Source: Methylobacter sp. (GTDB taxonomy: Bacteria; Pseudomonadota; Gammaproteobacteria; Methylococcales; Methylomonadaceae). From it: a DNA stretch of 32,870 nt. Where the stretch lies: NCBI GenBank assembly GCA_026399025.1, contig JAPLRU010000040.1, positions 1 to 32,870 of the forward strand. Direction: 5' to 3'. The position numbers and the translations under genes were made by a program. Each line of letters begins with the position of its first letter. Position 1 is the first letter of the stretch. Positions 318-24,070 of this stretch are shown in pieces. A model generated the notes under the pieces. The model was not told the DNA's origin, did no database searches, and saw only the letters and a list, made by a program, of their open reading frames with translations.

Positions 318-360
318 TTCAACTTCGGCTTTTCGGTAAGTTCGAATAGCCGAAGTTGAA
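318..360. other. 13-bp stem hairpin upstream of the RTX gene
   Basis: TTCAACTTCGGCT (318-330) is perfectly complementary to AGCCGAAGTTGAA (348-360), with a 17-nt loop. A TATAAT hexamer follows at 362-367 without a convincing -35 box. The hairpin lies 134 nt before the chosen RTX start, so it could be a terminator for an upstream gene, a leader structure of the RTX mRNA, or another palindromic repeat. The rest of 1-493 shows no gene. Confidence 0.45.
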
Positions 361-493
361 CTATAATCAGCTATTATTTTATGTTTTAGATACAGTCACC
401 TGTCTTAAACACCCAACCCGAGCCGTTCAAATTGAGCAACGCACCCGCATCGGGTATCGCTCAAGCCCTTTATTTAGCATAGAGAAATCCTAC

Positions 494-3400
494 ATGAGTC
501 AAGCAATTACACCAACAGGCCAACGGACTGTCATAGATAGCCCTGCAAGCCCTGATTTATCCGGCGCTTCAAGCAATACCACCGTTCCGACCGAGGGTGA
601 CGATACCCTGCTTGGCACAGAGGGGAACGATACGATATTGGGATTGGCAGGTAACGACCTTATTAACGGGCTGGCCGGCAAGGATAAGCTGGACGGCGGC
701 GCCGGCAACGATACGCTGAACGGCGGTCCGGGCAATGATAGTCTGGACGGCGGCGCGCTGGACGATTACAGTCCGGGCGTTATCGACACGCTGAACGGCA
801 GCACCGGCAATGACACCTTTTTATCCCGAGGCTTTTTTGGCGCGGGCTATTACTCGGGCGGATACGACATTGACCGGCTGGATTTCAGCCAGCCCGATGC
901 CTATACCGCAGAGCGCCGCACTACCGATAGTGCCGGTGTGAAGGTCGATCTCGGCGCCGCTACGGCGTTTACTTATTATCTTCAGGCAAGCGACTTCACT
1001 TGGCTCGACCCCAACGGGCAAATCACTGTCACGGGCATTGAAAATGTGCGCGGCACTAGCCAAGGCGATATGCTCATCGGCGACGCTAATGCTAATGAGC
1101 TTGATGGCGGCGCCGGCAGCGATATGCTCAGTGGCGGTTCCGGTGACGATACCTTGGATGGCGGTGTGTTGGATATTTACAGCCCCGGCGTTATCGATAC
1201 GATCAATGGCGGCGATGGCAACGATCTCTTTCTATCCAGGGGCTTTTACGGGCAAGGCGACTATTCCGGCGGAGATGGCATCGATTGGCTGGATTTCAGT
1301 CAGCCCGATGCGTTTACGGCTAAGAACCGCACTACCGAAGACTTGGGCGTCAAGGTCGATCTTAGCGTTGGCACAGCTTTTACCCGCTACCAGCAATCGA
1401 GCGATTCCGCATGGCTTGACCCCAACGGACAAATCGCTCTAGCAACAATTGAAAATATTAGAGGCACCGAGCAAGGCGATATGCTCATCGGCGACAGCAA
1501 TGCTAATGAGCTGGATGGCGGTGCGGGCAATGATGTGCTTAAAGGCGGGGAGGGCGCCGATACCCTGATCGGCGGTAGCGGCGACGACAGCTATGAGCTG
1601 GATTCGGCCGATGATGTGGTGATTGAGGCGGCGAATGCCGGTACCGATACCATTCAGTCCGGCATCGGCTATAGCCTTAGCGATAATTTCGAAAATCTCA
1701 CCCTGATCGGGACTGCCGATATTAGCGGCGCCGGTACTGCGTTAGACAATATACTCATCGGCAATAGCGGCTCCAATACGCTGAACGGTGGCGACGGCAA
1801 CGATACGCTGGACGGCGGCGCATTGGACGAATTCAGTCCCGGCGTGACTAATACACTGAACGGCGATGCCGGCGACGATACTTTTTTATCCCGAGGTTTG
1901 TTCGGCGCGGGCAACTATGCCGGCGGCGAGGGTGTCGATCAGATCGATTTCAGTCAGGCCGATGCCTATACCGCCGGACGGCGCAGTGCCGAGGGTGCGG
2001 GCGTCAAGGTCGATCTTGCTGTCGGCAATGTTTTTAGCTATTACCGTGCGGCGGTTAATTTCACTTGGACCGATCCCAACGGACAAATGACTCTGTCAAC
2101 CATTGAAAATGTCCGCGGTACCGCACAAGATGACATTATCAACGGCGACGCCAATGCCAATCTGCTTGACGGCGATTCAGGCAGCGATGTGATCGACGGC
2201 GGTGCGGGGGACGATACCTTGGATGGCGGCGCGCTGGATGATTACTTCCCCGGCATTATCGATACACTAAGCGGCAATAGCGGTAACGATCTGTTTTTAG
2301 CCCGAGGTTTTTTTGGCGCGGGTAATTATGCCGGAGGCGAGGGGGTCGACTGGGTCGATTTCAGCAGGCCCGATGCTTATACCGCAGAGCGGCGCAGTAC
2401 CGACAGTGCCGGTGTCAAAGTGAATCTCGGTACCGGTAGCGCTTCCACTTACTACCTCGAAGCGAGCGGTTTTACCTGGCTTGATCCGAACGGGCAAATC
2501 GCTCTGGCAACGATTGAAAATGTTCGCGGCACCGAGCAAAGCGATATAGTTATCGGCGATAGCAAGGCCAATGAGCTTGACGGCGGCGCCGGCAATGATG
2601 TCCTTGATGGCGGGGCAGGGGCCGACACCTTAATCGGCGGCACCGGCGACGATACCTATGGCATCGATGCCATCAATGACTTGATCGTCGAAGCCGCCGA
2701 TGCCGGTATCGATACCGTTCAGACCGGTATCGGCTACAGCCTCGGCGATAATCTGGAGAACCTCACCTTAACCGGTGCAGCCGCCATCGGCGCTATGGGC
2801 AACGCCTTAGACAATAAACTTATTGGCAATAGCGGCTCTAATACGCTTAACGGCGGCGACGGCAACGACACGCTGGACGGCGGGGCCGTAGATGAGTACA
2901 GCCCCGGCCTCAGCAATACGCTGAACGGCGATGACGGCGACGACACGTTCTTATCAAGCGGCTTTTTCGGTGCGGGCTATTACTCGGGAGGATTCGGCTC
3001 CGATTGGCTTGATTTCAGTCAGCCCGACGCCTATAGCGCAGAGCGCCGCCAAACCGATAACGCGGGCGTCAAAGTGGTTCTCGCTACCGGCAATGCTTCC
3101 ACCTATTATGTTCAGGCGAACGATTTCACTTGGCTCGACGCCAACGGGCAAATCGCGCTGTCATCCATCGAAAATATCCGGGGCACTGAGCAAGGCGATC
3201 TTATTATCGGCAACGGCAGTGCCAATGTGCTTGACGGCGGCGCCGGCAACGACGTTATTAGCGGCGGCTCGGGCGATGACACCTTAGATGGCGGTGCGGT
3301 GGATGAATACATGAGCGGCGTTACCAACACCTTAAATGGCGATACCGGTAACGATACCTTTTTGTCCCGAGGTTTCATCGGAGCGGACAGTTATGTCGGC

Positions 3401-6400
3401 GGCGACGGCTTCGACTGGATCGATTTCAGTCAACCCGATGCCTTTACCGCAGCTTACCGCAAGACCGATAGCGCCGGCGTCAAAGTGGACCTTGCCGCCG
3501 GTAATGCCTCTACTTATTATGTGCAAGCAAGCGATTCCGCTTGGCTCGACCCCAATGGGCAAATCGCTGTGGCAACGATTGAAAATGTGCGCGGCACCGA
3601 ATACGGCGACAGGCTCATCGGCGACAGCAATGCCAATCAGCTGGACGGCGGCGACGGCAATGATGTGCTTAATGGCGGAACAGGCGCCGATACGCTGGTC
3701 GGTGGCGCCGGTGACGACAGCTATCAGGTGGACGGTGTTTCAAGCGTCGTTATTGAAGCGAAAAATGCCGGAACCGATAGCGTCCACGCCGGTATCAGCT
3801 ACAACTTGGGGGCCAATATTGAGAGCCTCACGCTGATCGGCGCGACTGCCATCAACGGCACCGGCAATGAGCTTGACAACATCATCATCGGCAACAGTGC
3901 ATCCAACCAGATTAACGGCGGCTTAGGCAACGATACGCTGGATGGCGGTGCGCTGGATGATTACAGTCCCGGAATAAAAGATACGCTGAACGGGAATGAT
4001 GGCAACGATATCCTTCTATCCCGAGGTTTCTTTGGCGCGGATAGTTATGCCGGGGGCGAAGGTATCGACTGGCTTGATTTCAGCCAAGCCGATGCTTATA
4101 CCGCAGAGCGTCGCAATACCGACGGTGCCGGTGTTAAGGTGAATCTCAGCCTTGGCGCGGCTTCCACTTATTATGTTCAGGCGAGCGGTTTCACTTGGCT
4201 CGATCCTAACGGACAAATCAGTCTTACCACCCTTGAAAATGCCCGAGGCACCGAGCAAGGCGATATTCTGATCGGCGACGGCAATGCTAATGAGCTTGAT
4301 GGCGGCGCGGGCAATGACGCCCTCAAGGGCGGTGCCGGAGCCGATACGCTAGTCGGCGGCGCGGGTGACGACAGTTATGAAGTGGATAGCCTCGATGACG
4401 TAGTGAGCGAAGCCGCCGATGCCGGTAACGATACTATTCAAACCGGCATCGGCTACAGCCTCGGCGATAATTTTGAAAACCTCACGTTGACGGGAGCTGA
4501 CGCTGTCAGCGGCAGCGGCAATGCTTTAGACAATAGACTGATCGGCAATAGCGAGGTTAATACCCTGGACGGCGGCGCCGGAAACGATACTTTGGATGGC
4601 GGCGCGCTGGATAATTCCACGCCGGGCGTCATTGACATGCTGAACGGCGGCGACGGTGACGACACTTTTCTGTTTCGCGGTTTTTTCGGCTCAGGCGTCT
4701 TCAGTGGCGGCGACGGGGCCGACCGGCTCGATTTCAGCCAATCCGACAGCTACACAGCTGCGCGCCGTAACGTCGATGGTGCGGGGGTCTCGGTGGATCT
4801 AGCTGTCGGCACCGCTATCAGCTACTATCGGAAAGGGACTGGTTCGCCCTCGATTAACCTTAACGAACCCCTGGTCCTGTCGTCCATTGAAAATGTGACC
4901 GGCACGGCGCAAGGCGACTTTCTGAATGGCGATGCCAATGCCAATGCGCTTGACGGAGGAGCGGGCGGTGACGTACTTAACGGCGGCGCGGGTGACGATA
5001 CCTTGGATGGCGGCGCCGTGGATGAGTACAATCCGGGAATCACCGACACACTGAACGGCGAGGCCGGTAACGACACCTTTTTATCCCGAGGCTTTTTTGG
5101 CGCCGGTCATTACGACGGCGGCGACGGCATTGATGGGATCGATTTCAGTCAAGCCGATGCCTATACCGCAGAACGCCGCAATACCGACAGTGCGGGGGTC
5201 AAGGTGAATCGTGCCGCCGGCACCGCTTCTACCTACTACCTACAGGCGAGTGACTTTACTTGGCCTGACCCCAACGGGCAAATCAGCCTTACCGCTATTG
5301 AAAATGTGCGCGGTACGGTGCAAAGCGACATTATCGGCGGAGACGATAAGGCCAATGAGTTGGACGGCGGCGCAGGCAGCGATGTGCTTAACGGCGGCGC
5401 GGGTGACGATACCTTAGATGGTGGAGCCTTGGATAATGACAGTCCGGGCGTCATCGACACGCTAAGCGGCGATGCGGGTAACGATCTGTTCCTATCCCGA
5501 GGTTTTTACGGACAAGGTAACTACTCGGGCGGTGAGGGATCTGACCGGATCGATTTCAGTCAGCCCGATGCTTATACCGCCGGTCGGCGCAGCGCTGACG
5601 GTGTCGGTGTTAAGGTCGATCTCTCTGCCGGGACGGCTTTCACTTATTATTTGCAGGCGAGCGGTTTTACTTCGCTTGACCTCAATCAGCAAATCGCTTT
5701 GAACTCCATCGAAAACGTCCAAGGCAGCGATCAAAGCGACATGCTCAGCGGCGATAATAACGCTAATGCGCTGGATGGCGGCGCAGGCAGCGACCTGCTT
5801 AACGGCGGCTCGGGTGACGATACCTTAGATGGCGGCGCAGTGGATGATTACAATCCGGGAATCACCGACACGCTGAACGGCGACGCCGGTAACTACACCT
5901 TTTTATCCCGAGGTTTTTTTGGCGCGGGCAATTACGCCGGTGGCGACGGAATCGACCTGCTTGATTTCAGCCGGCCCGATGCCTATACCGCAGAGCGTCG
6001 CAGTACCGATAGCGCGGGTGTCAAAGTGGATCTCGGCGCAGCTACGGCTTCCACTTATTATCTGCCGGCGAGCGGTTTCACATGGCCGGACCCGAACGGG
6101 CAAATCAGTCTGACCGGCCTTGAAAATGTGTTCGGTACCGAGCAAGGCGATATCCTCATCGGCGATAACCACGCCAACCTGCTGGACGGCGGCGCGGGCA
6201 GTGATGTGCTCAATGGCGGTTTGGGTGACGATACCTTAGACGGCGGCGTCTTGGATATTTACAGTCCGGGCGTCATCGATACGCTGAGCGGCGACGCCGG
6301 CAACGACCGCATTCTATCCCGAGGCTTTTACGGACAAGGCAACTACTCGGGCGGCGACGGCATCGATTGGCTTGATTTCAGTCAGCCGGATGCTTACACC

Positions 6401-7594
6401 GCTGTGCATCGTAATGCCGAAGGTTTGGGCGTAAAGGTCGATCTTGTCGCCGCTACCGCATTTACCCGTTACCAACAGGCGATTGATTTCACTTGGCTTG
6501 ATCCCAACGGACAGATTACCCTCGCAACGATTGAGAATATTCGCGGCACCGAACAAGGTGATATTCTCAGTGGCGATGGCAATGCCAATGCGCTTGACGG
6601 CGGCTCAGGCAATGACGTGCTTAACGGCGGGGCGGGCGCCGATACCTTGATCGGTGGCTTCGGAGACGATAGCTACGAAGTCGATTCGGCCGGTGATGTC
6701 GTTATTGAGGCGGCAAATGCCGGTATCGACACGGTACGATCAAGCATCGGCTACAGCCTAAGCGATAACCTTGAGAATCTGACCCTGATCGGCACTGCGG
6801 TAGGCAACGGCACAGGCAATGCGTTTGATAACGTCCTGGTCGGCAACAGCGCCGCCAATATGCTTAGCGGCGGCGACGGTAACGATACCTTGGATGGCGG
6901 CGCTGTAGACGAATACAGTCCCGGACTGGTTAACGAGCTGAATGGCAATAACGGCGACGACACTTTCCTAGCCCGAGGCTTTTTCGGAACAGACAGCTAT
7001 TTTGGCGGCGATGGGGCGGACTGGCTTGATTTTAGTCAGCCTGATGCTTATACCGCGCAGCGTCGCAGTATCGACAGTGCGGGTGTTAAAGTCGATCTTG
7101 TTGCCGGCAAAGCCTCCACCTACTATCTGGAAGCCGGCGGTTTCACTTGGGACGATGCTAATGGCCAAATCGCTCTGACCGCTATTGAAAACATCCGTGG
7201 GACCGCGCAAAACGATATTCTCAGTGGCGATAATAATGCCAACGTGCTTGACGGTGGCGCCGGTAATGACCTTTTAATAGGCGGTTTAGGGGCCGATACT
7301 TTTCAACTGCGGAGCTTAGGCTCTATGGACACTCTTCAAGACTACTCGGTAAGCGACGATACGATTCAACTTGGCAGTGCAGCATTCACCGCGTTAACCC
7401 ATACCGGCGTCTTAGCGGCCTCATCCTTGCGGGTCGGCGCTAAAGCCTTGGATGCCGATGACTTTTTGATTTACAACAGCAGCACGGGGAAATTGTATTA
7501 CGATGCCGATGGCAATGGCGCTCATCCGGCAACGGAAATTGCGCTGTTAGGCGCCAATTTGGCTTTAACCAATGCTGATTTTGTTGTGGTTTAA
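494..7594 (+). CDS. Giant RTX calcium-binding protein, probable type I secretion substrate
   Basis: About 2366 aa, very acidic and rich in Gly and Asp. The N-terminus has classic GGxGxDxLx nonapeptides. Thirteen copies of a module follow, recognisable by 'FLSRGFFG', 'DFSQPDAYTAERR' and 'AGVKVDL', with module starts near 823, 1233, 1887, 2300, 2950, 3364, 4015, 4668, 5080, 5495, 5905, 6315 and 6968. Each is separated by RTX nonapeptides. Spacing is either about 137 aa or about 218 aa; the longer form carries an extra 'ENLTLIG...GNALDN' module and occurs five times. The last ~110 residues resemble the C-terminal domain of RTX exoproteins and end in NADFVVV, like an uncleaved type I secretion signal. 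RTX nonapeptides bind Ca2+ and fold outside the cell. I see no protease, lipase or other catalytic domain, so an adhesin, matrix or surface-layer role is plausible. No type I transporter genes are in the window. An upstream TTG start at 356 is possible, but ATG 494 begins the recognisable protein. Confidence 0.9.
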   Translation: MSQAITPTGQRTVIDSPASPDLSGASSNTTVPTEGDDTLLGTEGNDTILGLAGNDLINGLAGKDKLDGGAGNDTLNGGPGNDSLDGGALDDYSPGVIDTLNGSTGNDTFLSRGFFGAGYYSGGYDIDRLDFSQPDAYTAERRTTDSAGVKVDLGAATAFTYYLQASDFTWLDPNGQITVTGIENVRGTSQGDMLIGDANANELDGGAGSDMLSGGSGDDTLDGGVLDIYSPGVIDTINGGDGNDLFLSRGFYGQGDYSGGDGIDWLDFSQPDAFTAKNRTTEDLGVKVDLSVGTAFTRYQQSSDSAWLDPNGQIALATIENIRGTEQGDMLIGDSNANELDGGAGNDVLKGGEGADTLIGGSGDDSYELDSADDVVIEAANAGTDTIQSGIGYSLSDNFENLTLIGTADISGAGTALDNILIGNSGSNTLNGGDGNDTLDGGALDEFSPGVTNTLNGDAGDDTFLSRGLFGAGNYAGGEGVDQIDFSQADAYTAGRRSAEGAGVKVDLAVGNVFSYYRAAVNFTWTDPNGQMTLSTIENVRGTAQDDIINGDANANLLDGDSGSDVIDGGAGDDTLDGGALDDYFPGIIDTLSGNSGNDLFLARGFFGAGNYAGGEGVDWVDFSRPDAYTAERRSTDSAGVKVNLGTGSASTYYLEASGFTWLDPNGQIALATIENVRGTEQSDIVIGDSKANELDGGAGNDVLDGGAGADTLIGGTGDDTYGIDAINDLIVEAADAGIDTVQTGIGYSLGDNLENLTLTGAAAIGAMGNALDNKLIGNSGSNTLNGGDGNDTLDGGAVDEYSPGLSNTLNGDDGDDTFLSSGFFGAGYYSGGFGSDWLDFSQPDAYSAERRQTDNAGVKVVLATGNASTYYVQANDFTWLDANGQIALSSIENIRGTEQGDLIIGNGSANVLDGGAGNDVISGGSGDDTLDGGAVDEYMSGVTNTLNGDTGNDTFLSRGFIGADSYVGGDGFDWIDFSQPDAFTAAYRKTDSAGVKVDLAAGNASTYYVQASDSAWLDPNGQIAVATIENVRGTEYGDRLIGDSNANQLDGGDGNDVLNGGTGADTLVGGAGDDSYQVDGVSSVVIEAKNAGTDSVHAGISYNLGANIESLTLIGATAINGTGNELDNIIIGNSASNQINGGLGNDTLDGGALDDYSPGIKDTLNGNDGNDILLSRGFFGADSYAGGEGIDWLDFSQADAYTAERRNTDGAGVKVNLSLGAASTYYVQASGFTWLDPNGQISLTTLENARGTEQGDILIGDGNANELDGGAGNDALKGGAGADTLVGGAGDDSYEVDSLDDVVSEAADAGNDTIQTGIGYSLGDNFENLTLTGADAVSGSGNALDNRLIGNSEVNTLDGGAGNDTLDGGALDNSTPGVIDMLNGGDGDDTFLFRGFFGSGVFSGGDGADRLDFSQSDSYTAARRNVDGAGVSVDLAVGTAISYYRKGTGSPSINLNEPLVLSSIENVTGTAQGDFLNGDANANALDGGAGGDVLNGGAGDDTLDGGAVDEYNPGITDTLNGEAGNDTFLSRGFFGAGHYDGGDGIDGIDFSQADAYTAERRNTDSAGVKVNRAAGTASTYYLQASDFTWPDPNGQISLTAIENVRGTVQSDIIGGDDKANELDGGAGSDVLNGGAGDDTLDGGALDNDSPGVIDTLSGDAGNDLFLSRGFYGQGNYSGGEGSDRIDFSQPDAYTAGRRSADGVGVKVDLSAGTAFTYYLQASGFTSLDLNQQIALNSIENVQGSDQSDMLSGDNNANALDGGAGSDLLNGGSGDDTLDGGAVDDYNPGITDTLNGDAGNYTFLSRGFFGAGNYAGGDGIDLLDFSRPDAYTAERRSTDSAGVKVDLGAATASTYYLPASGFTWPDPNGQISLTGLENVFGTEQGDILIGDNHANLLDGGAGSDVLNGGLGDDTLDGGVLDIYSPGVIDTLSGDAGNDRILSRGFYGQGNYSGGDGIDWLDFSQPDAYTAVHRNAEGLGVKVDLVAATAFTRYQQAIDFTWLDPNGQITLATIENIRGTEQGDILSGDGNANALDGGSGNDVLNGGAGADTLIGGFGDDSYEVDSAGDVVIEAANAGIDTVRSSIGYSLSDNLENLTLIGTAVGNGTGNAFDNVLVGNSAANMLSGGDGNDTLDGGAVDEYSPGLVNELNGNNGDDTFLARGFFGTDSYFGGDGADWLDFSQPDAYTAQRRSIDSAGVKVDLVAGKASTYYLEAGGFTWDDANGQIALTAIENIRGTAQNDILSGDNNANVLDGGAGNDLLIGGLGADTFQLRSLGSMDTLQDYSVSDDTIQLGSAAFTALTHTGVLAASSLRVGAKALDADDFLIYNSSTGKLYYDADGNGAHPATEIALLGANLALTNADFVVV

Positions 7595-13432: not shown

Positions 13433-15138
13433 AACTACACATCGAACGCCGTTATGTCGAAAGCCTGATCGACGCTTTTCCCAATCAGAGCGCATTGAAG
13501 GAACAACTGCGTTTCGGCAATAAGGCCGAAGTGCTTTATCAGCAATTGGCCGCGCAAGAATGGAGTTTTTTGCACGATCTGTATCAATCTTCCGGCGCAA
13601 AAAGCCAAGCCGCGTTGTTGGCAACGCTGCAAACCGCGCTGAATGATGGCGGCGAGCGCTACGAAGCCGAACAACTGGAGAAAGTGCTGCCCAGCATTAC
13701 CCACTACCTGATCGACGATGCTCAACGCGGCTGGCTGTTTCAAGCCGACGCCAAGGGCAGAACCTGCGCCTATTTGATTACCCGTCTCGATTACACGCCG
13801 CCCGGCGAGGAAGAGGCGGGCCGCATCCTGATTGAACTGAAAGCTAACACCAAAGGCAAAATCTCAGTTGAAACGCTGGCTATCCGCGCCAAGGATATCG
13901 CCGGTAAAACCATCGCCGAGATTTTCGCCGCCAAAGGTTATCTTAAAGAAACGCCGGAATTGATCGCTGTTTACGACGAAGCCGCCGACCGCTATTTCGA
14001 CTGGCGCGGCCGTTACGGCGAGCAGTTTTCCGGCTGGGGAACCGCGGTTTATGTCGAAGATCCGACCTCCAGCCATCGCAGCAGCGATTGGACCCGCAAA
14101 AACACGGTCGTATTGTCCTCGGCCGGCGGCGCTTGCCGTTTGGTCAACGACGAAAACATCCTCAGCGAACGCGCATTAACGCTCGAAGCCTCCGGCGACA
14201 TTCTCGGCAAATATCTGCGCAAAGCCGGAAACAGCATGCGTTACGACAGCAAAACCGAAACCGCGATGGAAGCCTCGAAAGCCGATATACCCAAAGGCGC
14301 GTTCGTCGACTTGCCGATTCACGGCTACATTCTGATGTTTCATTTGGAACTGCATCACCACGTCTGGGTGCATGTCGATGATATAGAACCTTATCAATAC
14401 CAACCGGAACTGAAACAAAAGCTGATATTGCCGCCGGAACAAACCGACTTGATCGACATTCTGACCGCCGAAATGGATATGCTGATGGACGACATTGTGG
14501 CCGGTAAATCCGGCGGTACCACGGTGCTGTGCGCGGGACCTGCCGGAGTCGGTAAAACCTTGACCGCCGAAGTTTATTCGGAAATCATCAAGCGTCCGCT
14601 GTACCGAGTGCATTCCGGGCAATTGGGGCTGAATGTTGCGGAAATGGAAAAAGTGCTGAAAGAAACGCTGATCCGCGCCCAACGCTGGGGCGCGGTGATG
14701 CTGATCGACGAGGCCGACGTTTACATCAAGCGCCGTAGCGACAATTTGGCTTCCAATGCCGTGGTCGGCGTATTTTTGCGGGTGTTGGAATATTTCAACG
14801 GCCTGCTGTTTTTAACCACCAACCGCGTCGACGACATCGACGAAGCGATTATTTCCCGCTGCATCGCGATGATCAAGTACCACGCTCCTCATAGCGCCGA
14901 CCGCCGCAAGATCTGGGCAGTCATGACCGAGCAGTTTGCGTTGCCGCTGGATCAGGCGCTAATCGACCAACTGGCCGATCTATTTCCCACCGCGACCGGC
15001 CGTGACATTAAAGGCTTGACCAAGCTGGTCGCCAAGTTTTGCCAGCAAAAGCAGTTGGAACCTAATCTGGAGGTCTTCAAGCGCTGCTCGGTGTTTCGAG
15101 GCTTGGAATTAGCGGAGGTTGCACAACCCCCTCTTTGA
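13429..15138 (+). CDS. AAA+ ATPase, function unknown
   Basis: 569 aa. The C-terminal AAA domain has Walker A AGPAGVGKT near residue 370, Walker B VMLIDEAD near 425, and a sensor-1-like TTNRVDDID. The ISRC segment that follows fits the arginine-finger region. The N-terminal ~340 residues form an unrecognised region that probably binds substrate. Coding is translationally coupled to the Fe-S oxidoreductase (TGA and ATG overlap). A chaperone or metal-cofactor-loading role for that enzyme is suggested only by this coupling. Confidence 0.8.
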   Translation: MKLHIERRYVESLIDAFPNQSALKEQLRFGNKAEVLYQQLAAQEWSFLHDLYQSSGAKSQAALLATLQTALNDGGERYEAEQLEKVLPSITHYLIDDAQRGWLFQADAKGRTCAYLITRLDYTPPGEEEAGRILIELKANTKGKISVETLAIRAKDIAGKTIAEIFAAKGYLKETPELIAVYDEAADRYFDWRGRYGEQFSGWGTAVYVEDPTSSHRSSDWTRKNTVVLSSAGGACRLVNDENILSERALTLEASGDILGKYLRKAGNSMRYDSKTETAMEASKADIPKGAFVDLPIHGYILMFHLELHHHVWVHVDDIEPYQYQPELKQKLILPPEQTDLIDILTAEMDMLMDDIVAGKSGGTTVLCAGPAGVGKTLTAEVYSEIIKRPLYRVHSGQLGLNVAEMEKVLKETLIRAQRWGAVMLIDEADVYIKRRSDNLASNAVVGVFLRVLEYFNGLLFLTTNRVDDIDEAIISRCIAMIKYHAPHSADRRKIWAVMTEQFALPLDQALIDQLADLFPTATGRDIKGLTKLVAKFCQQKQLEPNLEVFKRCSVFRGLELAEVAQPPL

Positions 15139-18077: not shown

Positions 18078-18105
18078 ATTTAACATAATATTCATTATGC
18101 GAAGT
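18078..18105 (-). other. dif: dif site (XerC/XerD recombination site, chromosome terminus)
   Basis: Read on the minus strand: XerC arm ACTTCGCATAA, 6-bp centre TGAATA, XerD arm TTATGTTAAAT. From memory of the gammaproteobacterial consensus (RNTKCGCATAA, TGTATA, TTATGTTAAAT), 27 of 28 positions agree; against E. coli dif, 24 of 28. dif is where XerCD resolve chromosome dimers with FtsK, so this window should lie at the replication terminus. The XerC arm is repeated at 23813-23823, bounding the integrated element. Confidence 0.9.
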
Positions 18106-18148
18106 CTTGGATGAGTTATTTTTCGCTGTTTTTTGTTTGTTTGAATAC

Positions 18149-18171
18149 ACAAACATTTTGCCGATGTTTGT
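18149..18171. promoter_or_regulatory. ACAAAC inverted repeats beside dif
   Basis: ACAAACAT and ATGTTTGT form an 8-bp inverted repeat with a 7-nt loop. A further ACAAAC...GTTTGT pair follows near 18180-18200. A related stretch (GAATACACAAACATTTTGCCG) recurs near 24031-24051 in the right-hand remnant, so it is a conserved part of the element's left end. An operator or promoter role is inference. Confidence 0.4.
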
Positions 18172-18244
18172 CTGTAAAAACACAAACAAAACAGTTTGTA
18201 CGTCACTCAACATTGTTGGCCTAGAGCGTGAGCGGTCTTTTGTG

Positions 18245-18532
18245 TTACTGGTCGGCCTGCATTTTTGCCGCGTTTAAATCAGCCAATCCCATGTAATGCA
18301 GATCGTCAATCATCCGAACCTCAACTTTGTTATGCGGCCAGATCACCGACGGCGGCAGCTCGATCGATTTGGCGATAGCAACGCGGATGCGGCGAATACC
18401 GCCCCCGGTCACCGCGTCATAAATGCATTTTCTGGTGACTTTGTTCTCGCTGGCAAAATGCGTAATTGAATGCCCGGTTTTGTCGCGCAGTTGCTTGGTG
18501 ATGGTTTTTTGAAGGTGATTAACGACATTCAT
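18245..18532 (-). CDS. Ner/Nlp-like HTH DNA-binding regulator
   Basis: 95 aa. The central part reads as a lambda-repressor-like helix-turn-helix, and IAKSIELPPSVIWPHN closely resembles the C-terminal part of the Mu Ner / Nlp family. Ner-type proteins repress early phage promoters. It is the last gene of the element's minus-strand set, and the 81-bp region in front of it is shared with a divergent 27-aa ORF. The long C-terminal extension after the WPHN motif is not recognised. Confidence 0.65.
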   Translation of the reverse strand: MNVVNHLQKTITKQLRDKTGHSITHFASENKVTRKCIYDAVTGGGIRRIRVAIAKSIELPPSVIWPHNKVEVRMIDDLHYMGLADLNAAKMQADQ

Positions 18533-18613
18533 GATGACAAAACCTGTACACTGAATTACCCTACAATCTAGACTTAAATAATTCGGTTTTCAATAAAAAA
18601 AACGAGGTGCCCA

Positions 18614-18697
18614 ATGACTACTCTAAAAAAACTGTTTTCGTTAGCGCTGCTCATCATTTACGCCATCCTGGAAGCAAATCGCTTCGGTAATCAGTGA
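18614..18697 (+). CDS. 27-aa hydrophobic peptide ORF
   Basis: It reads MTTLKKLFSLALLIIYAILE and seven more residues: two basic residues, one membrane-spanning stretch, and a short polar tail. GAGGTG lies five bases before the ATG. It runs opposite to the other element genes, divergent from the Ner-like gene and ending 7 nt from the stop of the 208-aa gene. It could be a small membrane peptide, a toxin-like peptide, or a chance ORF. It is shorter than the known coat proteins of inoviruses. Confidence 0.4.
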   Translation: MTTLKKLFSLALLIIYAILEANRFGNQ

Positions 18698-18704
18698 TGC
18701 GTTG

Positions 18705-19331
18705 TCATAGCGCCTTTAAAACATTCAAAAATTCATCCCAGATCGATGTTTCGACGGTTAAAAACCACGCTTTTTCGAGTTCGCTTTTCAGCGCATAACT
18801 CGCATCCGACATTTTTCCACGCAATAAATCGAGCGTGCTGTCAGCCCAAGATGTGCTTGATATGTCTTCAGTTACCATACCGCCTAACTCTTGCACGTGT
18901 TGGCATATACCGTCCACCAAGGCGGTCACATCATCCAGCGCGCTGATATTGTTGCCCCACTCCATGGCCGCTTCAATGATGGCGTCCAAGAGCGATAGCG
19001 TAACAATCAATAAAGCCAACAGTACGTTGTATCCAGGCGGTGCAACAACCTTGGCTTTTAACAAGGTTTGAATCAGGATCTTCATGAGCTGACCACCGGC
19101 CAGCATAACGGCTAGTTTTTTAATCCAAAAACTGATGCGTGTCATGGCTTGGAACGCTTTCGCGCTTTTACAGAACGTAGCGCCAAGGCCCAACGCAACA
19201 GCCACGGCGGCAACCACTTTGACAGCGCTACCGCCATCCCGGATGACATATTTTGAAATTCTGGCCACATCTTTTTCAGTAAAGTGTCGAGGATGTGAAC
19301 GATTCGGCTTGTAATACGTGACTTTCGGCAT
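18705..19331 (-). CDS. Membrane protein of the dif element, unknown function
   Basis: 208 aa from the ATG of MPKVTYYKP, which has AGGTG six bases upstream; the frame extends three codons further to a GTG. A basic N-terminus (KPNRSHPRHF) is followed by hydrophobic segments near residues 38-55, 70-85 and 100-120, and then a soluble acidic C-terminal half. There is no Walker A motif, so it is not a Zot/pI assembly ATPase. Its position near the end of the minus-strand set fits a structural or membrane-interaction role, but I do not recognise it. Confidence 0.65.
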   Translation of the reverse strand: MPKVTYYKPNRSHPRHFTEKDVARISKYVIRDGGSAVKVVAAVAVALGLGATFCKSAKAFQAMTRISFWIKKLAVMLAGGQLMKILIQTLLKAKVVAPPGYNVLLALLIVTLSLLDAIIEAAMEWGNNISALDDVTALVDGICQHVQELGGMVTEDISSTSWADSTLDLLRGKMSDASYALKSELEKAWFLTVETSIWDEFLNVLKAL

Positions 19332-19562
19332 AAAAAACACCTGGTGGAAAGCCTTGTGGCAGCTGCCACAAGGCTACTTAAATGAGCCCCCAAACGGACA
19401 TTATTTTATTATTGCTTTTCAATGGCTTATAAAAATATTCGATTTAAGGCCCGGTTATTACGGCCATGTCAACGCATGGCCGTAAGCGGTTTTGAAGTGT
19501 GAGCGCGTTTTAATTAATTGAGTATTTTCAGCAGGTTATCGTGCATCGTAAGTCCATGTCCC
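19332..19562. other. Element intergenic region with two strong palindromes
   Basis: This is the longest gap within the element's minus-strand gene block. It holds a perfect 24-bp palindrome at 19351-19374 (GCCTTGTGGCAG and its complement, no loop) and an 11-bp stem with a 6-nt loop at 19458-19485 (TTACGGCCATG with CATGGCCGTAA). Filamentous phages keep rolling-circle origins and the packaging hairpin in such a region, so this is the best candidate for either. Termination or processing between the 87-aa and 208-aa genes is the alternative. Confidence 0.5.
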
Positions 19563-19826
19563 CTACCCCGCACGCGTTTGACAGCGTGTCGTTTGCTCAA
19601 CCAATTTGCGTAGTGCATCGGTGTTGTCTTTGAGTGACTGCATCCAAAACCCCCGTTCTTCACAGTGCGCATCAACGATGATGTTGACCCGCGCATTGTG
19701 GTCCGAGATGAGCGTTTTTATCTGCATCAACACATAAACCAGCAGCGCAAATAAGGCCAGGATAACAAGCCCAGCCAACCCGTATTTATCAAACGCGTTG
19801 AGTGATTGCGTAGCGACCGTGTCCAT
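19563..19826 (-). CDS. Small single-TM protein of the dif element
   Basis: 87 aa. A short polar N-terminus is followed by one transmembrane helix (GLAGLVILALFALLVYVLM, about residues 17-35) and then an amphipathic, probably coiled-coil C-terminus. Layout and size are holin- or spanin-like, or that of a minor inovirus membrane protein; the sequence does not decide. ATG 19826 shares one base with the TGA of the 354-aa gene, so translation is probably coupled. Confidence 0.6.
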   Translation of the reverse strand: MDTVATQSLNAFDKYGLAGLVILALFALLVYVLMQIKTLISDHNARVNIIVDAHCEERGFWMQSLKDNTDALRKLVEQTTRCQTRAG

Positions 19827-20890
19827 CACGCAACGGCTTTTTTGAGTCCGGCACCGGCGATAACCTGCATAACAGATTCATCGTTTCTCAACGCGTTGGC
19901 CCATTCAGATGTTGGCGATATTTTCGGCACACGCACATTTTTTGATTCCAGATACGCAGACAACTTTGCAATATTTTTAATTGACGTACACGCAATTTGA
20001 ATCATCTCTTCACGCAAATATGATTCACTGTCAGCACGTATTCCTGACGCCTCACAAATCGCTACAGCATCGGCGCCATTCACACCGGCCAAACGCAAAC
20101 GTCGATAACGATCATTGCTCGAACCGGACAGTGCAACTTTTTTAATGTGCTCGACCAGCGCCGCAGATTTTAAAATCAGTAATAGTTTGTCATCTTCACT
20201 CATTACAGCGCCTGCTTTCTGCAATTTTCTGATTGACGCTATCGCCGCTTTATCGGCATCCGTTGGTGTTGCAACCAACAATTTTATTGCCAGCAAATTT
20301 GCGTTTGCAGATGATGTTCTAACGATTGACGATACTTTTCCATCATTGCTGATTGAAACAATCGCCGCAAAAGATTCAGTGTCTTTGTTTAAAAATTCAA
20401 TAGCCGATGGATCGTTATTGATGTTGACGAGCTGATCACCACACATAGTAACAACAGCATTAAACGATTGCCCTACCATGCTTAAAAAATCCGTTTTAGG
20501 TGTCAGGATGACGTCGTCAAGCAAGGTAAGAATGAGTGTTTCAACGCCATTATCAACTGTGTTTGTTGTGTCAAACGTGTAGATAGTTTGGGTGGCGGCA
20601 ATAATATCGCTGTCCGTTGCATCTTTACCCAAATCAATACCAATACCGATCATGTTGGTTGGAAATGGTTTTGATGTCGCGTTAACATCTTTGCGCAAAA
20701 CAAATGATGTTGGTTGTTCACTATCTTGACCCATCCAGACCAACATATATACGACGTCCAATTGTTCTTCAGCCGTTCTGATAACCTTATTATCGATGGA
20801 AAAAACAGTATCCGAACCGGCTACTTTAATGCCTAAATTTTGCGCGCTGTATTGGTCTTCGGGCTGACTTATTTTTACTCCAATCCACAT
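19826..20890 (-). CDS. Unknown 354-aa protein of the dif element
   Basis: The largest gene of the element. GAGGA precedes the ATG (MWIGVKISQPED). There is no signal peptide, membrane helix, Walker motif or zinc cluster. The N-terminal half looks like beta-rich sequence with many Asp, Thr and Val; the C-terminal ~150 residues look helical, with several Lys/Arg. It occupies the slot after the ssDNA-binding gene where inoviruses normally carry coat and adhesin genes, yet it resembles neither. I do not recognise it. Confidence 0.65.
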   Translation of the reverse strand: MWIGVKISQPEDQYSAQNLGIKVAGSDTVFSIDNKVIRTAEEQLDVVYMLVWMGQDSEQPTSFVLRKDVNATSKPFPTNMIGIGIDLGKDATDSDIIAATQTIYTFDTTNTVDNGVETLILTLLDDVILTPKTDFLSMVGQSFNAVVTMCGDQLVNINNDPSAIEFLNKDTESFAAIVSISNDGKVSSIVRTSSANANLLAIKLLVATPTDADKAAIASIRKLQKAGAVMSEDDKLLLILKSAALVEHIKKVALSGSSNDRYRRLRLAGVNGADAVAICEASGIRADSESYLREEMIQIACTSIKNIAKLSAYLESKNVRVPKISPTSEWANALRNDESVMQVIAGAGLKKAVA

Positions 20891-20956
20891 GTTTTTATCC
20901 TCAAAATGATTAATGAGGTTGCAGCATACGGATGTTGGCGTGTACTAAAAAAGCCC

Positions 20957-21262
20957 TCAGTTTTTACCGTTATCGGCCCAGCCGACAATCACGTTGCGGC
21001 TGTCGCGGTCCAGCGATAACTTTAAATCAAACGCCACCGGCAGACCTTTAAAAGCGGCTTGAAATTTATCTTTAAACTCACCGGCAAACACCGTGCCGAC
21101 GGCCATTTCAACCGCGCTATAACCGTGGACGTGCGATTGGAAATTAACGTTATCGATGTCTTCAAATGGCACCAACGCCAGTGCCCGGGTCATCGAATAT
21201 GGGTTACCGGTTTTTTTGGCAATGCCGGTGTTGGTAAATACCGAAGCAATCAAGAGTTTCAT
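20957..21262 (-). CDS. Probable ssDNA-binding protein (DUF1293-like)
   Basis: 101 aa from ATG 21262 (MKLLIASVFTNTGIAKKTG); the longer open frame to 21358 is an artefact, because ATG 21262 overlaps the previous stop as ATGA. The N-terminal strand, the 'KKTGNPYSM' turn, the 'VPFE' step and the final beta segment match the pattern of small inovirus proteins classed as DUF1293, thought to act like gpV. gpV coats new single strands and turns off replication. Position downstream of Rep fits. Confidence 0.65.
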   Translation of the reverse strand: MKLLIASVFTNTGIAKKTGNPYSMTRALALVPFEDIDNVNFQSHVHGYSAVEMAVGTVFAGEFKDKFQAAFKGLPVAFDLKLSLDRDSRNVIVGWADNGKN

Positions 21263-21582
21263 ACGTTTTTTTGATGTAAATGAGGTTCTGATAAAACCCG
21301 GCGATAAGCCAAGGGCGGTGGCGAATCGTCCGGCATTAAGCCTAACGATTGCCGCCAAACACGATTAAATTTTTGCACATTGGCGATAATCGCTTGCCAC
21401 TGCTCATCAGTGTGCCCCTGATCCAGATAAAAAGCTTTAATAGCGGCGTGAACTTTGGCGCAACGCTCGAAATAATCACGATTAAGGGCTTGGGAAGCGT
21501 GGAAGGCTTTGTCATTAAGACTAAAACCGGGAAGGGTTTGGGCGTCCAAAGCTAATTGGCGGATGTGGTCTTTAGAGCTCAT
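21259..21582 (-). CDS. Unknown 107-aa protein of the dif element
   Basis: Mostly helical, basic and aromatic-rich in the middle (RDYFERCAKVHAAIKAFYL), with a Pro-rich patch near the C-terminus. It overlaps both neighbours by 4 nt (ATGA), so three genes are translationally coupled. No known family is apparent. Confidence 0.6.
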   Translation of the reverse strand: MSSKDHIRQLALDAQTLPGFSLNDKAFHASQALNRDYFERCAKVHAAIKAFYLDQGHTDEQWQAIIANVQKFNRVWRQSLGLMPDDSPPPLAYRRVLSEPHLHQKNV

Positions 21583-21791
21583 AAAGCCCCCTTACGCATC
21601 CGCTGATAGCGGGCTTTGATGCGCTGTTCCGTCGACAATAAAATTTTTAGTCGGTTTTCGTCCGCACGAATCCTCGCTAACTGTTCCGGGTCAACGGCCT
21701 GCCTTTCGTTGACGTAGGTGCAGGTCAGCGCCGCTATTTCATTGCAACGCCAATAGCGGGCGCTGTTCGGTTGAAGTAATAGCATGGGCAT
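21579..21791 (-). CDS. Unknown 70-aa protein of the dif element
   Basis: Starts MPMLLLQPNSARYW; the second Met (two codons in) has the better-placed GGTG. The C-terminal half is a charged helix. Possible Cys pair in 'RYWRCNEIAALTC'. Overlaps the next gene by 4 nt. Function unknown. Confidence 0.55.
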   Translation of the reverse strand: MPMLLLQPNSARYWRCNEIAALTCTYVNERQAVDPEQLARIRADENRLKILLSTEQRIKARYQRMRKGAL

Positions 21792-21806
21792 TCACCATTA
21801 ATCCGG

Positions 21807-22130
21807 TTAATGACATTGCATAAAATCAGTGCTCTCCTGCCCTAAAACCACGGGCGACGTAACAGGAGAGTGGCCAAGGTCGCTTGTTTGTTTTTGCTCG
21901 TAAATGCGATTCAGAGCGGACTCATAAAGTTCATCAATCAAAATCTTGTTTTCGATGATTCGCGAAACACTGTCGGGTATGTTCAGATAGGAAATACCCG
22001 TTAATTGCGCTTTAACATTGGCTTTATAAAGTTCCAAAATATAAGGATTGTTTTCCGTTGTTGATTTATCGCGAAAGTAATTAACAATAGCACCAACGGC
22101 TTTGGTGATGTCTTTTTCAGAAATTTCCAT
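21807..22130 (-). CDS. Unknown 107-aa protein of the dif element
   Basis: Acidic, helical protein starting MEISEKDITKAVGAIVNYF. No motif or membrane segment. It lies 66 nt after the end of the frameshifted Rep tail and 15 nt before the 70-aa gene, so it is probably part of the same transcript. Confidence 0.55.
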   Translation of the reverse strand: MEISEKDITKAVGAIVNYFRDKSTTENNPYILELYKANVKAQLTGISYLNIPDSVSRIIENKILIDELYESALNRIYEQKQTSDLGHSPVTSPVVLGQESTDFMQCH

Positions 22131-22195
22131 GGCTTGGCTCCAGTGGATTTAGGGAAACCTTGACCAAGTAAGCCAAGGGTGAAAAAAATCGGCGC

Positions 22196-22420
22196 TTACG
22201 CGGCAATCAGGCCTCGCTCATAAGCCCATGAGGGAATGGCCACCGGCACCGCTTCAATGATGCGCAGCATCGGCACCACGTTGTTATGTTCGGGCGCTAG
22301 GCAGGTGGCGTTCAGTTCGATACCGAATTCGAGCAAGGCTTTGCGGTGGCGGTAAAAAGTATTTTGTGCAAGTAGTTGGCGTAAATCCGCCCCTTGTCGC
22401 CATAGCGTGTAAGTGCCTCG
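22196..22420 (-). pseudogene. Out-of-frame C-terminal part of the Rep gene
   Basis: Read in the -1 frame relative to the upstream ORF, this gives YTLWRQGADLRQLLAQN, then TFYRHRKALLEFGIEL, then about 40 more residues ending at TAA (22196-22198). The YRHRK...LL...GI pattern is typical of the C-terminus of gene II/X initiators. The shift lies at about 22395-22430; a GGGG run in that stretch is the obvious slippage or error point. Confidence 0.7.
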
Positions 22421-23136
22421 TAACGCACTTGGGTTAAGTCGCGGCCATGGCGGATGCCATGCTTTTGCAGTTCTTTAGAGAAAATGCGCAACTCAGCGCG
22501 TAATTTGCCTTGAATAAAGTCTTCAAGGCCGAGGTGTTGCAGGTGGAAAGGCAGTTGGTGAGTGACGCCCTTGGCAATCATTTCCCGGTGTTTGTTGTAA
22601 AACTTCATGGCCCAGCGTTTGGATAATTTGCCCAGATACACCGTGCCTTTATCCCGCGCGGCTTTGCCGTGTCGAGACAGCGCCCGCATTCCGGCGGCAT
22701 GTAACCACGCTTCAACGCTGGCGTCATTGCCCACGTCATACAGCTGGTTAATGTCGATCATCTTCACCTTGTAATCGCCCCGCTTGATTTTTGCTTCGGT
22801 CAATGCCGGACTGGAACAGCTGTGCAAATGGTCGGCGTGTAGCTCAACAATCTTACGAAAGGCCAACAGCAACAACGTGTTCAGGTCGCGGGAACCGAAC
22901 ACGTTGTGCCCTTGCAGGAATTTACACAGGTTGCCGTCGATCATCAGCGAGGTCGCGCGGCCTTGGCCGTCACCACCGGATGACTTGATTTTTATGCTGG
23001 TTTCGTGGGAAGACCGGCAGGTGATGGACTTCACGCAATCCCATTCAAGAGAACCATCCGCTTCAATAGACAACACATGACCCGCCGGTAAAGGGTCGTG
23101 TAAAAAGTCTATCTCGCCTCGGAACCAATCGATCAT
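22312..23136 (-). CDS. Inovirus replication initiator (gene II/X-like), frameshifted
   Basis: 274 aa as read. The N-terminus (MIDWFRGEIDFLHDPLPAGH) and the body with 'VYLGKLSKRWAMKFYNK' and 'LRAELRIFSKEL' match phage CRI/gene II-type initiators, which nick the (+) origin to start rolling-circle replication. The final ~30 residues as read look out of frame. The -1 frame continues the family pattern (TLWRQGADLRQLL, then TFYRHRKALLEFGIEL) to a stop at 22196, giving about 313 aa. A one-base deletion, a sequencing error or programmed frameshifting would explain this. It is divergent from the repressor gene. Confidence 0.8.
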   Translation of the reverse strand: MIDWFRGEIDFLHDPLPAGHVLSIEADGSLEWDCVKSITCRSSHETSIKIKSSGGDGQGRATSLMIDGNLCKFLQGHNVFGSRDLNTLLLLAFRKIVELHADHLHSCSSPALTEAKIKRGDYKVKMIDINQLYDVGNDASVEAWLHAAGMRALSRHGKAARDKGTVYLGKLSKRWAMKFYNKHREMIAKGVTHQLPFHLQHLGLEDFIQGKLRAELRIFSKELQKHGIRHGRDLTQVRYEALTRYGDKGRIYANYLHKILFTATAKPCSNSVSN

Positions 23137-23282
23137 AAAAAACCATCAGCAATTGCGGTTGAATTTAAAAAATATAGCTTTCAAATGAATGCTAGATAAT
23201 ACTTTCAAGCAAAAGGCACTGTTAATTAAAAGTGATGGTCAATTGAAAGTTAAAACGCTATGGTGAATTTGAGAGGTGAAAA
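23137..23282. promoter_or_regulatory. Divergent Rep/repressor control region with CTTTCAA repeats
   Basis: CTTTCAA occurs at 23178-23184 and 23202-23208, and inverted (TTGAAAG) at 23243-23249. These sites lie between the Rep start and the repressor start, spaced 24 and 41 bp. That is the layout expected for an immunity operator, like the RstR-binding region of CTXphi. Repressor binding is inference. Confidence 0.45.
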
Positions 23283-23591
23283 ATGGAAGCCACAGAATGG
23301 TTAGATAAAGCAAAACAAAAATTAAAACTCGATAGCGACTATAAATTGGCAAAAATAATAGGAATCGGGAACGGCGCTATAGCGAACATCAGGAAGCGAA
23401 ACAGCGGTATGGATAATTACGTTGCGTCGAGAATTGAAGATATTCTTGAGCTGGAAAAGATGACGGTCATTATTGATATGGAAATTCAAAAAGCAAAAAG
23501 CGAAGAGAAAAAACGGTATTGGCAAAAGAAAGGACAAATCTACTTAGACAAAAGCCAATTACTGGCAATTTCAAATGAAGAAAATGAGTAA
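23283..23591 (+). CDS. HTH repressor of the dif element (DUF3693-like)
   Basis: 102 aa. The helix-turn-helix is in the N-terminal half (SDYKLAKIIGIGNGAIANIR). The layout 'WLDKAKQKLKLDSDYKLAKIIG' with a following 'RIEDILELE' and a Lys/Glu-rich helix resembles DUF3693 proteins of inoviruses. GAGAGGTG precedes ATG 23283. It is the only element gene of normal size on the plus strand, facing away from Rep, and so occupies the immunity-repressor position of RstR. The strong hairpin at 23753-23793 would terminate its transcript. Confidence 0.75.
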   Translation: MEATEWLDKAKQKLKLDSDYKLAKIIGIGNGAIANIRKRNSGMDNYVASRIEDILELEKMTVIIDMEIQKAKSEEKKRYWQKKGQIYLDKSQLLAISNEENE

Positions 23592-23726
23592 AAATTACCA
23601 AAAATGGTAGAAAAGGACAGTACTACTTACCCTGTCCTTCGCTTTTTTGCGAATCGTTCGTGATTGGGAAAAGGAAAAGCGTGACTTGGCCAGGGATAAA
23701 CACACCAGGTCAGTCACAAAAGCGCT

Positions 23727-23824
23727 GACTTCGCATAATGCAGCCTATGCAAAAAAGCCCCGGTGTGCTGTCGCATGTTACACCGGGGCTTTTCTACATA
23801 AGCTGCGTCACATTATGCGAAGTC
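23727..23824. other. CTXphi-type attP hairpin: two inverted dif-like sites
   Basis: Site 1: XerC arm 23728-23738, 6-bp centre TGCAGC, XerD-like arm CTATGCAAAAA (7/11). Site 2, inverted: XerC arm 23813-23823, 11-bp centre TGTGACGCAGC, XerD-like arm TTATGTAGAAA (8/11). The two pair as one stem: 14 bp outside (GACTTCGCATAATG), a 5-nt bulge (23806-23810), CAGC with GCTG, then a 14-bp inner stem (23753-23766 with 23780-23793) and a 13-nt loop. The inner stem, flanked by A and T runs, can also terminate transcription both ways. In CTXphi a folded ssDNA attP of this form is the XerC substrate for integration at dif. Confidence 0.85.
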
Positions 23825-24042
23825 TTGGATTGGGTTTTTTGATGCGTTACGGATGGCCGGCAGCTGGGTTTTGCGCCGCCTATACGTTGTTTGCAAGCAT
23901 GGGAACAATACCGATGAACACGATAAGCAGCACCGTCAGGCTGATAGTTATACGAAAAAAATAACTTTCCGCAAAAATCGCAAGGATATCTCATTAAAAC
24001 CTCATCGGTAAAAATATTTTGTTTATTTGAATACACAAACAT
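23794..24042 (-). CDS. Small zinc-finger protein overlapping attP
   Basis: 82 aa, starting MFVYSNKQNIFTDE. A zinc-binding pattern is visible: CDFCGKLFF (CxxC) and, about 20 residues later, YCSHACKQR (CxxxC). The last ten residues (KTSHNVTQLM) are encoded by the XerC arm and the attP2 centre, so the gene ends inside the recombination site. At the left end of the element the matching ORF starts MFVYSNKQ but lacks the zinc part and runs through dif into host DNA. It is a candidate gene of the truncated second element; whether it is expressed is unknown. Confidence 0.5.
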   Translation of the reverse strand: MFVYSNKQNIFTDEVLMRYPCDFCGKLFFSYNYQPDGAAYRVHRYCSHACKQRIGGAKPSCRPSVTHQKTQSKTSHNVTQLM

Positions 24043-24070
24043 TTTGCCGGTATTTTATCGTAAAAGACAA
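23813..24070. mobile_element. Remnant left end of a second dif-integrated element
   Basis: After the right XerC arm, similarity to the left end of the first element continues: CTTGGAT, and later GAATACACAAACATTTTGCCG (24031-24051) with weaker similarity to about 24070. The two copies differ by an insertion of about 170 nt. This is what remains if an earlier element integrated at dif, was pushed aside by the later one, and then lost most of its length. The right limit is uncertain. Confidence 0.6.

Follow-up and report, generated by a model that had tools for sequence, protein, structure and literature searches.

RS1, the satellite of phage CTXphi, carries regulator, Rep and RstB-like genes and keeps an attP of the helper type, and morphogenesis genes are lacking from it. 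In the present study, a stretch of DNA of 32,870 bases (the window, which is the complete contig C97 of the Methylobacter draft genome G000, 5.23 Mb in 138 contigs) was analysed and found to contain a 5718-bp element beside the chromosomal dif, in which genes for a regulator, Rep and an RstB-like protein are likewise retained together with an attP, and no morphogenesis genes are recognised. This element is probably an RS1-like satellite of inovirus origin, possibly a decaying one, which has been integrated at dif by the CTXphi route. RS1 is classed in PMC4246890 as a relative of the CTX type, and the same source names this type of integration for Ypfphi and CUS-1phi also. For attP1 and attP2 of CTXphi, centres of 12 and 6-7 nucleotides (nt) are given in Table II of PMC3089051 and in PMC4246890. 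The TLCphi satellite, as described in PMC4246890, resembles the element in being integrated at dif with a replication module but no structural genes, whereas it differs in having a single dif-like site, the XerD arm of which is degenerate, and in a reversible, XerD-first integration. A sequence-only reading of the window had proposed a CTXphi-style occupation of dif in a probable methanotroph, and its guess at the host was right at the level of the genus. The sites on which the comparison with CTXphi is based are as follows.

18078..18105, plus strand: chromosomal dif (XerD arm 18078-18088; centre TATTCA 18089-18094; XerC arm 18095-18105).
18095..23812, no strand assigned: integrated element, 5718 bp, between two XerC arm/centre borders, with a homologous layout in other genomes.
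23728..23823, minus strand: attP hairpin of two inverted dif-like sites (96 nt), seen in the fold, in an alignment of 20 loci and in family-wide matches.
23728-23755, plus strand: short-centre site of the hairpin, with a centre of 6 nt (TGCAGC).
23791-23823, minus strand: long-centre site of the hairpin, with a centre of 11 nt (TGTGACGCAGC).
23813..23823, minus strand: second XerC arm, that is, the right half of the split dif and the outer arm of the hairpin, in a ACTTCGCATAATG repeat.

The window dif differs at one position from the dif most often found in its genus, a level reached by none of 100 shuffles, and it is the sole match in G000 at up to three mismatches. This dif, at up to two mismatches, is present in 21 of 23 genus genomes, and the XerC arm ACTTCGCATAA is common to the dif sites of 18 relatives. 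The odd base of the window's dif centre (18089-18094) is the third from the XerC arm and adjoins the position reported for homology testing in CTXphi. The 13-mer ACTTCGCATAATG occurs at three places in the window (in dif, at 23728-23740 and at 23811-23823) against 0.04 expected, and three copies were found in none of 100 shuffles; it therefore places the second XerC arm at 23813-23823 and bounds the element proper at 18095-23812. Both the near-consensus dif and the second XerC arm about 5.7 kb away from it, as claimed in the sequence-only reading, were thus confirmed. Another exact match of the XerC arm in G000, at C115:87195, lies inside an apparent coding sequence with the XerD half missing and was rejected as a chance match, about 0.16 such 13-mers being expected by arithmetic (10.5 Mb, both strands). 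The terminus was located in a complete relative and not in the draft: in G165, a single-contig chromosome of the family, dif lies at 3,309,759 with two tandem hairpin units at 3.30-3.31 Mb, and the GC skew of twenty 20-kb samples changes sign twice, from minus to plus between 0.96 and 1.20 Mb and back to minus between 3.12 and 3.36 Mb; within the plus stretch, a single sample at 1.68 Mb is slightly below zero. The second of these changes spans dif, as would be expected of the terminus.

Read on the minus strand from 23823 to 23728, the attP consists of the XerC arm, the 11-nt centre, a degenerate XerD arm and a terminator-like stem, after which follow a degenerate XerD arm, the 6-nt centre and an XerC arm. 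Both sites fold into a single hairpin with a 5-nt bulge, the energy being -38.7 kcal/mol for the minus strand (z -10.95, equalled by 0 of 200 shuffles) and -35.4 kcal/mol for the plus strand (z -10.0). The inverted sites, the two centres and the bulge were found as first described, the hairpin measuring 96 nt where 98 nt had been given. As in attP(+) of CTXphi, the dif-like sites are inverted and one of them has a long centre (12 nt in CTXphi, TGTGGCGCGGCA, and 11 nt here), the fold is formed on one strand, no integrase is carried and dif is rebuilt on one side (PMC3089051, PMC4246890). The proposed likeness to the CTXphi attP is thus borne out, with centres of 6 and 11 nt in place of the 6-7 and 12 nt known there. 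On the other hand, the whole hairpin measures 96 nt as against about 150 nt in CTXphi, in which the sites are reported to be 90 bp apart, and the present element differs further in its terminator-like inner stem, in having no Zot and no recognised virion genes and in its methanotroph host. In 20 aligned hairpins, which were picked by a script through their arms and a T-run string with near-duplicates left out (L011, L013, L021, both of L022, L024 and L078; loci are designated by L, genomes by G and contigs by C), 13 of the 36 pairs have both sides changed with the pairing kept.

The hairpin is also terminator-like, with a GC stem and a T run, and it could be supposed that it is merely an intrinsic terminator and that the element entered dif as double-stranded DNA, in the manner of VGJphi or TLCphi. 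The inner stem with its flanking A and T runs would agree with such a view, but the conserved XerC arms, the extended centre and the majority of the wobbles are located beyond the terminator stem. On the Rep-coding strand of the 20 hairpins, read with the fold of the window, 650 Watson-Crick pairs, 86 G-T pairs, 6 A-C pairs, 51 other mismatches and 27 gaps were counted, and the att part holds 74 of the 86 G-T cells and 2 of the 6 A-C cells (sum over the table). At positions that would be A-C mismatches on the opposite strand, the Rep-coding strand retains G-T wobbles. Eleven distinct hairpins outside the training set gave 30 G-T against 3 A-C overall, and 26 against 0 in the att part; since the model that detected them had the first 20 as its training set, they lean towards that set, and in general the G-T and A-C counts are inflated by shared descent, a few wobble columns holding most of them. 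Even so, the bias has the polarity that selection for folding of the virion strand, as in CTXphi, would be expected to leave, and wobbles beyond the terminator stem would not be accounted for by a terminator running in that sense. The VGJ type is moreover described in PMC4246890 as having a single dif-like site and leaving two compatible ones, whereas here one end is without a full dif. A mere terminator with double-stranded entry is therefore considered very unlikely. About 30 natural attP hairpins thus carry a directly testable signature of strand polarity, with wobbles on one strand only.

Integration of the CTXphi type, with dif rebuilt at the left end as first proposed, is well supported by the anatomy of the sites, the fold, the strand bias and the recurrence of the layout in other genomes. 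In the original picture of a CTXphi-style occupation, in which no genes were named, the integration at dif stands, but Zot and recognisable virion genes are missing, and to the right there is probably a stump left by an older element and not plain host DNA. The locus shows what marks a CTX-type integrative mobile element exploiting Xer (IMEX): dif as the target, which is the sole one of G000 and has its terminus position shown in G165; a full dif at one end and a dif-like pair at the other; an inverted pair with one extended centre, folding on one strand; and no recombinase of its own beside the XerC/XerD of the host. No integrase family was found among the ten element open reading frames (ORFs) tested, and among six matches to host recombinases in G000 there are an XerC that passes the cut-off and another recombinase that is XerC/D-like.

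By analogy with CTXphi (PMC4246890, PMC3089051), an XerC-only reaction on single-stranded DNA may be inferred. Rolling-circle replication by the II/X-family Rep would yield a single-stranded circle, and in the folded strand the two inverted dif-like sites would come together in one hairpin whose stem would act as a single XerC/XerD site. Host XerC would then swap one strand with dif at the border of the XerC arm and the centre, and replication would complete the insertion. The product would be a rebuilt dif on one side, the XerC arm of which (18095-18105) would have been brought by the element, and on the other side the split XerC arm with the double-stranded, presumably inactive hairpin. The element, being without known means of making virions, would spread through a Zot-bearing helper phage, which would presumably be needed; Zot-bearing phages with the same attP do occur in its genus and family.

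A covariance-model search of 237 genomes of the family, G000 included, gave hairpins at E<=1e-14 in 20 places in 17 genomes, stricter filters losing weak matches. Thirteen of these could be bounded as units (G022:C5 by degenerate XerC-arm sites only), and seven which run into contig ends were dropped (two of G014, and those of G012, G188, G171, G139 and G158). Zot is carried by 9 of the 13 bounded units and absent from 4, the window counted, and all nine units longer than 6 kb carry it. Wherever a dif and a strong hairpin share a fetched stretch, the element lies on the XerC side of dif with the hairpin at its far end. The units beside dif measure 9.5 kb in G015, 8.5 kb in G199 (with a tandem second unit), 7.8 kb in G045, 6.9 kb in G230, 3.5 kb in G107, 3.2 kb in G131, 1.4 kb in G162, 5.7 kb in the window and 9.4 kb in the IMG/VR locus L010. 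Since dif is rebuilt by each insertion of the CTXphi type, units are predicted to accumulate in tandem on a single side of it. Zot-bearing phages are found at dif in the same layout in G015, G045, G230, G199 and G165, and G107 has at its dif a second Rep-bearing unit without Zot, of 3468 bp. The hairpin is present in circular forms too, namely in L072, with a 141-bp terminal repeat and Zot present, and in L014, which has a 99-bp terminal repeat in 3490 nt, with Rep present and Zot absent. In L022, a 3.0-kb Rep unit lies between two hairpins and adjoins a Zot-bearing stretch, and its 127-bp repeat could be a product of circle assembly. The full inoviruses L010, L072, L073 and L082, of Methylobacter and its kin, have the same attP hairpin, three of the four having the same type of Rep and two a close RstB-like protein, whereas, unlike the element, they encode Zot together with a protein that is pIII-like by eye, and in some there is a putative secretin of 430 amino acids (aa). 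L082 differs in that its hairpin accompanies a replication gene of the GPA type and not of the II/X type (L082:6676-8070, in G015), which indicates that attP and Rep have been exchanged.

Two small units extending from hairpin to dif were also observed. That of G131 (L143:9719-12932, 3.2 kb) encodes a 649-aa TPR protein and a DUF29 protein, with neither Rep nor Zot, and that of G162 (L142:110-1554, 1.4 kb) has a single long gene, of 309 aa, without a Pfam match. It can be speculated that the folded-strand attP is, in this family, a general cassette end, by which any hairpin-bearing single-stranded circle would be inserted beside dif by host XerC, but this wider proposal is considered improbable. 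If true, phages, satellites with Rep alone and units having neither Rep nor Zot would stack in order on the XerC side of dif in an array like an integron without an integrase, of which the G162 and G131 units would be examples. They were not adopted as clean cassettes; the origin-like block of G131 is partly deleted, and that unit may be a decayed phage.

The replication and regulatory part of the element consists of the following features.

22312..23136, minus strand: Rep of the II/X family of phages, in frame for its N-terminal catalytic domain (PF05144, E 4e-53; TIGR01629, E 3e-35).
22199..22432, minus strand: C-terminal part of Rep, 78 residues, present in a different reading frame (tblastn with the 344-aa Reps of relatives).
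23283..23591, plus strand: helix-turn-helix (HTH) regulator, divergent from Rep and RstR-like by its place (phrog_4441, E 2e-20; phrog_638, E 7e-13).
20957..21262, minus strand: RstB-like/single-strand-binding protein (PF07459, E 5e-5, below the curated cut-off; phrog_929, E 8e-10).
21259..21582, minus strand: conserved ORF of 107 aa, found in 9 of 25 IMG/VR relatives.
21807..22130, minus strand: another ORF of 107 aa, with insignificant matches only (best: 33 aa, E 0.008).
21579..21791, minus strand: ORF of 70 aa, with insignificant matches only.
18245..18532, minus strand: HTH protein of 95 aa (phrog_769, E 5.5e-6; PF13693, E 0.0065, below cut-off).
23590..23666, minus strand: origin-like block with a GGACAG...CTGTCC stem-loop, a putative rolling-circle (+) origin, conserved in relatives.

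Rep is 53-81% identical to the Reps of 25 confirmed IMG/VR loci. Among these, the RstB-like protein is present in 14 (one at 29% identity) and homologues of the HTH regulator in two (L029 and L030). The II/X-family Rep and the RstB-like, single-strand-binding protein mark the element as an inovirus-derived replicon, though with the C-terminal part of Rep out of frame, and Rep, the RstB-like protein, the HTH regulator and the conserved 107-aa ORF link it to the full inoviruses. Five of the compared units, all of them with close Reps (G107, L014, L010, G016 and G045), share the origin-like block at 73-94% identity over 51-115 bp. It was unmatched in G199, G165, G230 and G015, whose Reps differ; in the Rep-less unit of G131 it is present minus 11 nt. 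This block may be the replication origin.

No Zot over the cut-off was found in the element or in the draft G000 by the profile search, the best and only match at E<=1 being an AAA-type gene at 14641-14862 of the window, below cut-off. The Zot model passes the cut-off in 11 of 23 genus genomes and 19 of 25 IMG/VR records; since 4 of 14 control genomes pass too, it is not specific, and genome-wide counts may include other ATPases. Of the six IMG/VR records without Zot, L014 alone has exact terminal repeats, and hence the absence is meaningful only there. No coat protein was recognised among the element ORFs by family searches. The place of the relatives' virion genes and Zot is taken by an operon of about 2.2 kb, which includes membrane-like proteins.

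19826..20890, minus strand: soluble orphan protein of 354 aa, encoded at the start of the operon that occupies the position of the relatives' virion genes and Zot; insignificant matches only.
19563..19829, minus strand: protein of 88 aa with one transmembrane (TM)-like stretch, its start overlapping the end of the 354-aa gene (phrog_9798, weak, E 0.0057).
18705..19340, minus strand: orphan protein of 211 aa with up to three TM-like stretches and insignificant family matches.

No convincing relative of the 354-aa protein was found (poor PDB match, E 0.87), and a single-sequence model of its fold was set aside as uninformative (mean predicted local distance difference test score, pLDDT, of 36). 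The family phrog_9798 is one of unknown function. These proteins raise the idea of a novel kind of filamentous phage, complete without Zot, whose particle genes (354, 88 and 211 aa) would be too diverged to be recognised. The operon does sit where relatives have coat, pIII-like and pVI-like genes and Zot, as named by eye; two of its proteins, of 88 and 211 aa, are membrane-like, and 5.7 kb is close to the size of a phage. However, the Zot/pI morphogenesis ATPase by which a complete inovirus is known is absent, the 354-aa protein has no TM-like stretch, and Zot is carried not only by the nine bounded units above 6 kb but also by all four IMG/VR loci above 6 kb with exact terminal repeats (L026, L028, L029 and L030). 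The 354-aa gene (1 of 201 family genomes) and the 211-aa gene (1 of 237) were moreover found only in G000. A new type of phage is thus hardly to be expected here.

Further out, the right flank contains the following feature.

23834..23994, no strand assigned: probable stump left by an older element, resembling the Zot-bearing G015 prophage at its dif-proximal end (73% over 167 bp, E 7e-21).

In addition, 24017-24055 resembles the element's own left end (92% over 39 bp). When the dif-proximal end was compared with the DNA beyond the hairpin, the repeat extended far beyond the 11-bp arm in L010, L082, L136, L143 and the tandem units of G199, was modest in L142 and did not exceed shuffles in the window, L135 and L140. 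Such right-flank repeats may be stumps of older insertions, and with a stump in this position the plain host flank would begin further right than 23824. An empty dif with the flanks of the window was not found, none of nine flank proteins being matched (E<=1e-4) in 20 loci, 18 of which have the dif of a relative.

Several findings weigh against an RS1-like satellite. The dif centre, read from the XerC side as TGAATA, is one base from the TGTATA common in relatives, and its agreement with the long-centre site next to the XerC arm is therefore limited to two bases in place of three. RstC, the antirepressor, was not named by any family search of the element ORFs, no direct comparison with RstC having been made. 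No Zot-bearing unit that could be the helper is present in the G000 assembly, while such units with the same attP occur in the congeners G015, G016 and G022. In the tree of Reps, in which 9 of 24 inner branches are well supported, three Zot-less units (the window, G107 and L014) form no clade, and a single origin of Zot-less units, which may nevertheless have occurred, is not supported. The orphan operon could hold unrecognised virion genes. The out-of-frame part of Rep corresponds to the G2P_X_C domain of longer relatives, and this frameshift, unless it is a sequencing error, suggests that the copy may be decaying. The orphan operon, the lack of any ORF named as RstC and of a helper in the same assembly, and the out-of-frame C-terminus of Rep are also what separates the element from RS1 itself.

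Chiefly because of the Rep frame, the main rival is a decayed full-length prophage, which would have lost Zot and the virion genes by deletion and replacement and would now be fixed as junk beside dif. Such decay would agree with the lack of a helper in the assembly, with the origin-block loss seen in the G131 unit and with a right flank that resembles the stump of another element. On the other hand, the attP hairpin, the origin-like block, the RstR-like and RstB-like genes and uninterrupted operon ORFs are all present, and in L014 the same attP is carried by a Zot-less circle. A decayed prophage is thus possible but doubtful, and the satellite remains the preferred explanation.

No dif-integrated filamentous phages of Methylobacter or Methylomonas were found in titles and abstract beginnings of the open-licence literature, which is weak evidence of novelty, and no open-licence paper was found on Methylomonas together with inovirus. 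In the part of the 2026 survey of Methylococcus prophages that was available (PMC12924245), the word inovirus appears only in a reference. The present locus would extend the CTXphi type of folded single-strand integration from Vibrio and a few other phages to methane oxidisers. In the survey PMC6813254 a phage ATPase was required, and Zot-less elements at dif would escape catalogues of this kind. If it acts on helpers or on competing phages, the orphan operon would constitute a new satellite module.

Some minor observations were also made. Zot matches lie about 2.6-4.4 kb from dif on the XerD side too (G014:C116, G015:C7, G021:C2, G007:C142 and G131:C1) and may mark a second class of dif-integrated phage. 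In G022:C36, two alike ORFs, DUF29-like by eye, flank dif (L057:876-1301 and 3963-4388). An ORF of 2412 aa at 356-7594 of the window contains repeated GGxGxD-like stretches and is RTX-like by eye.

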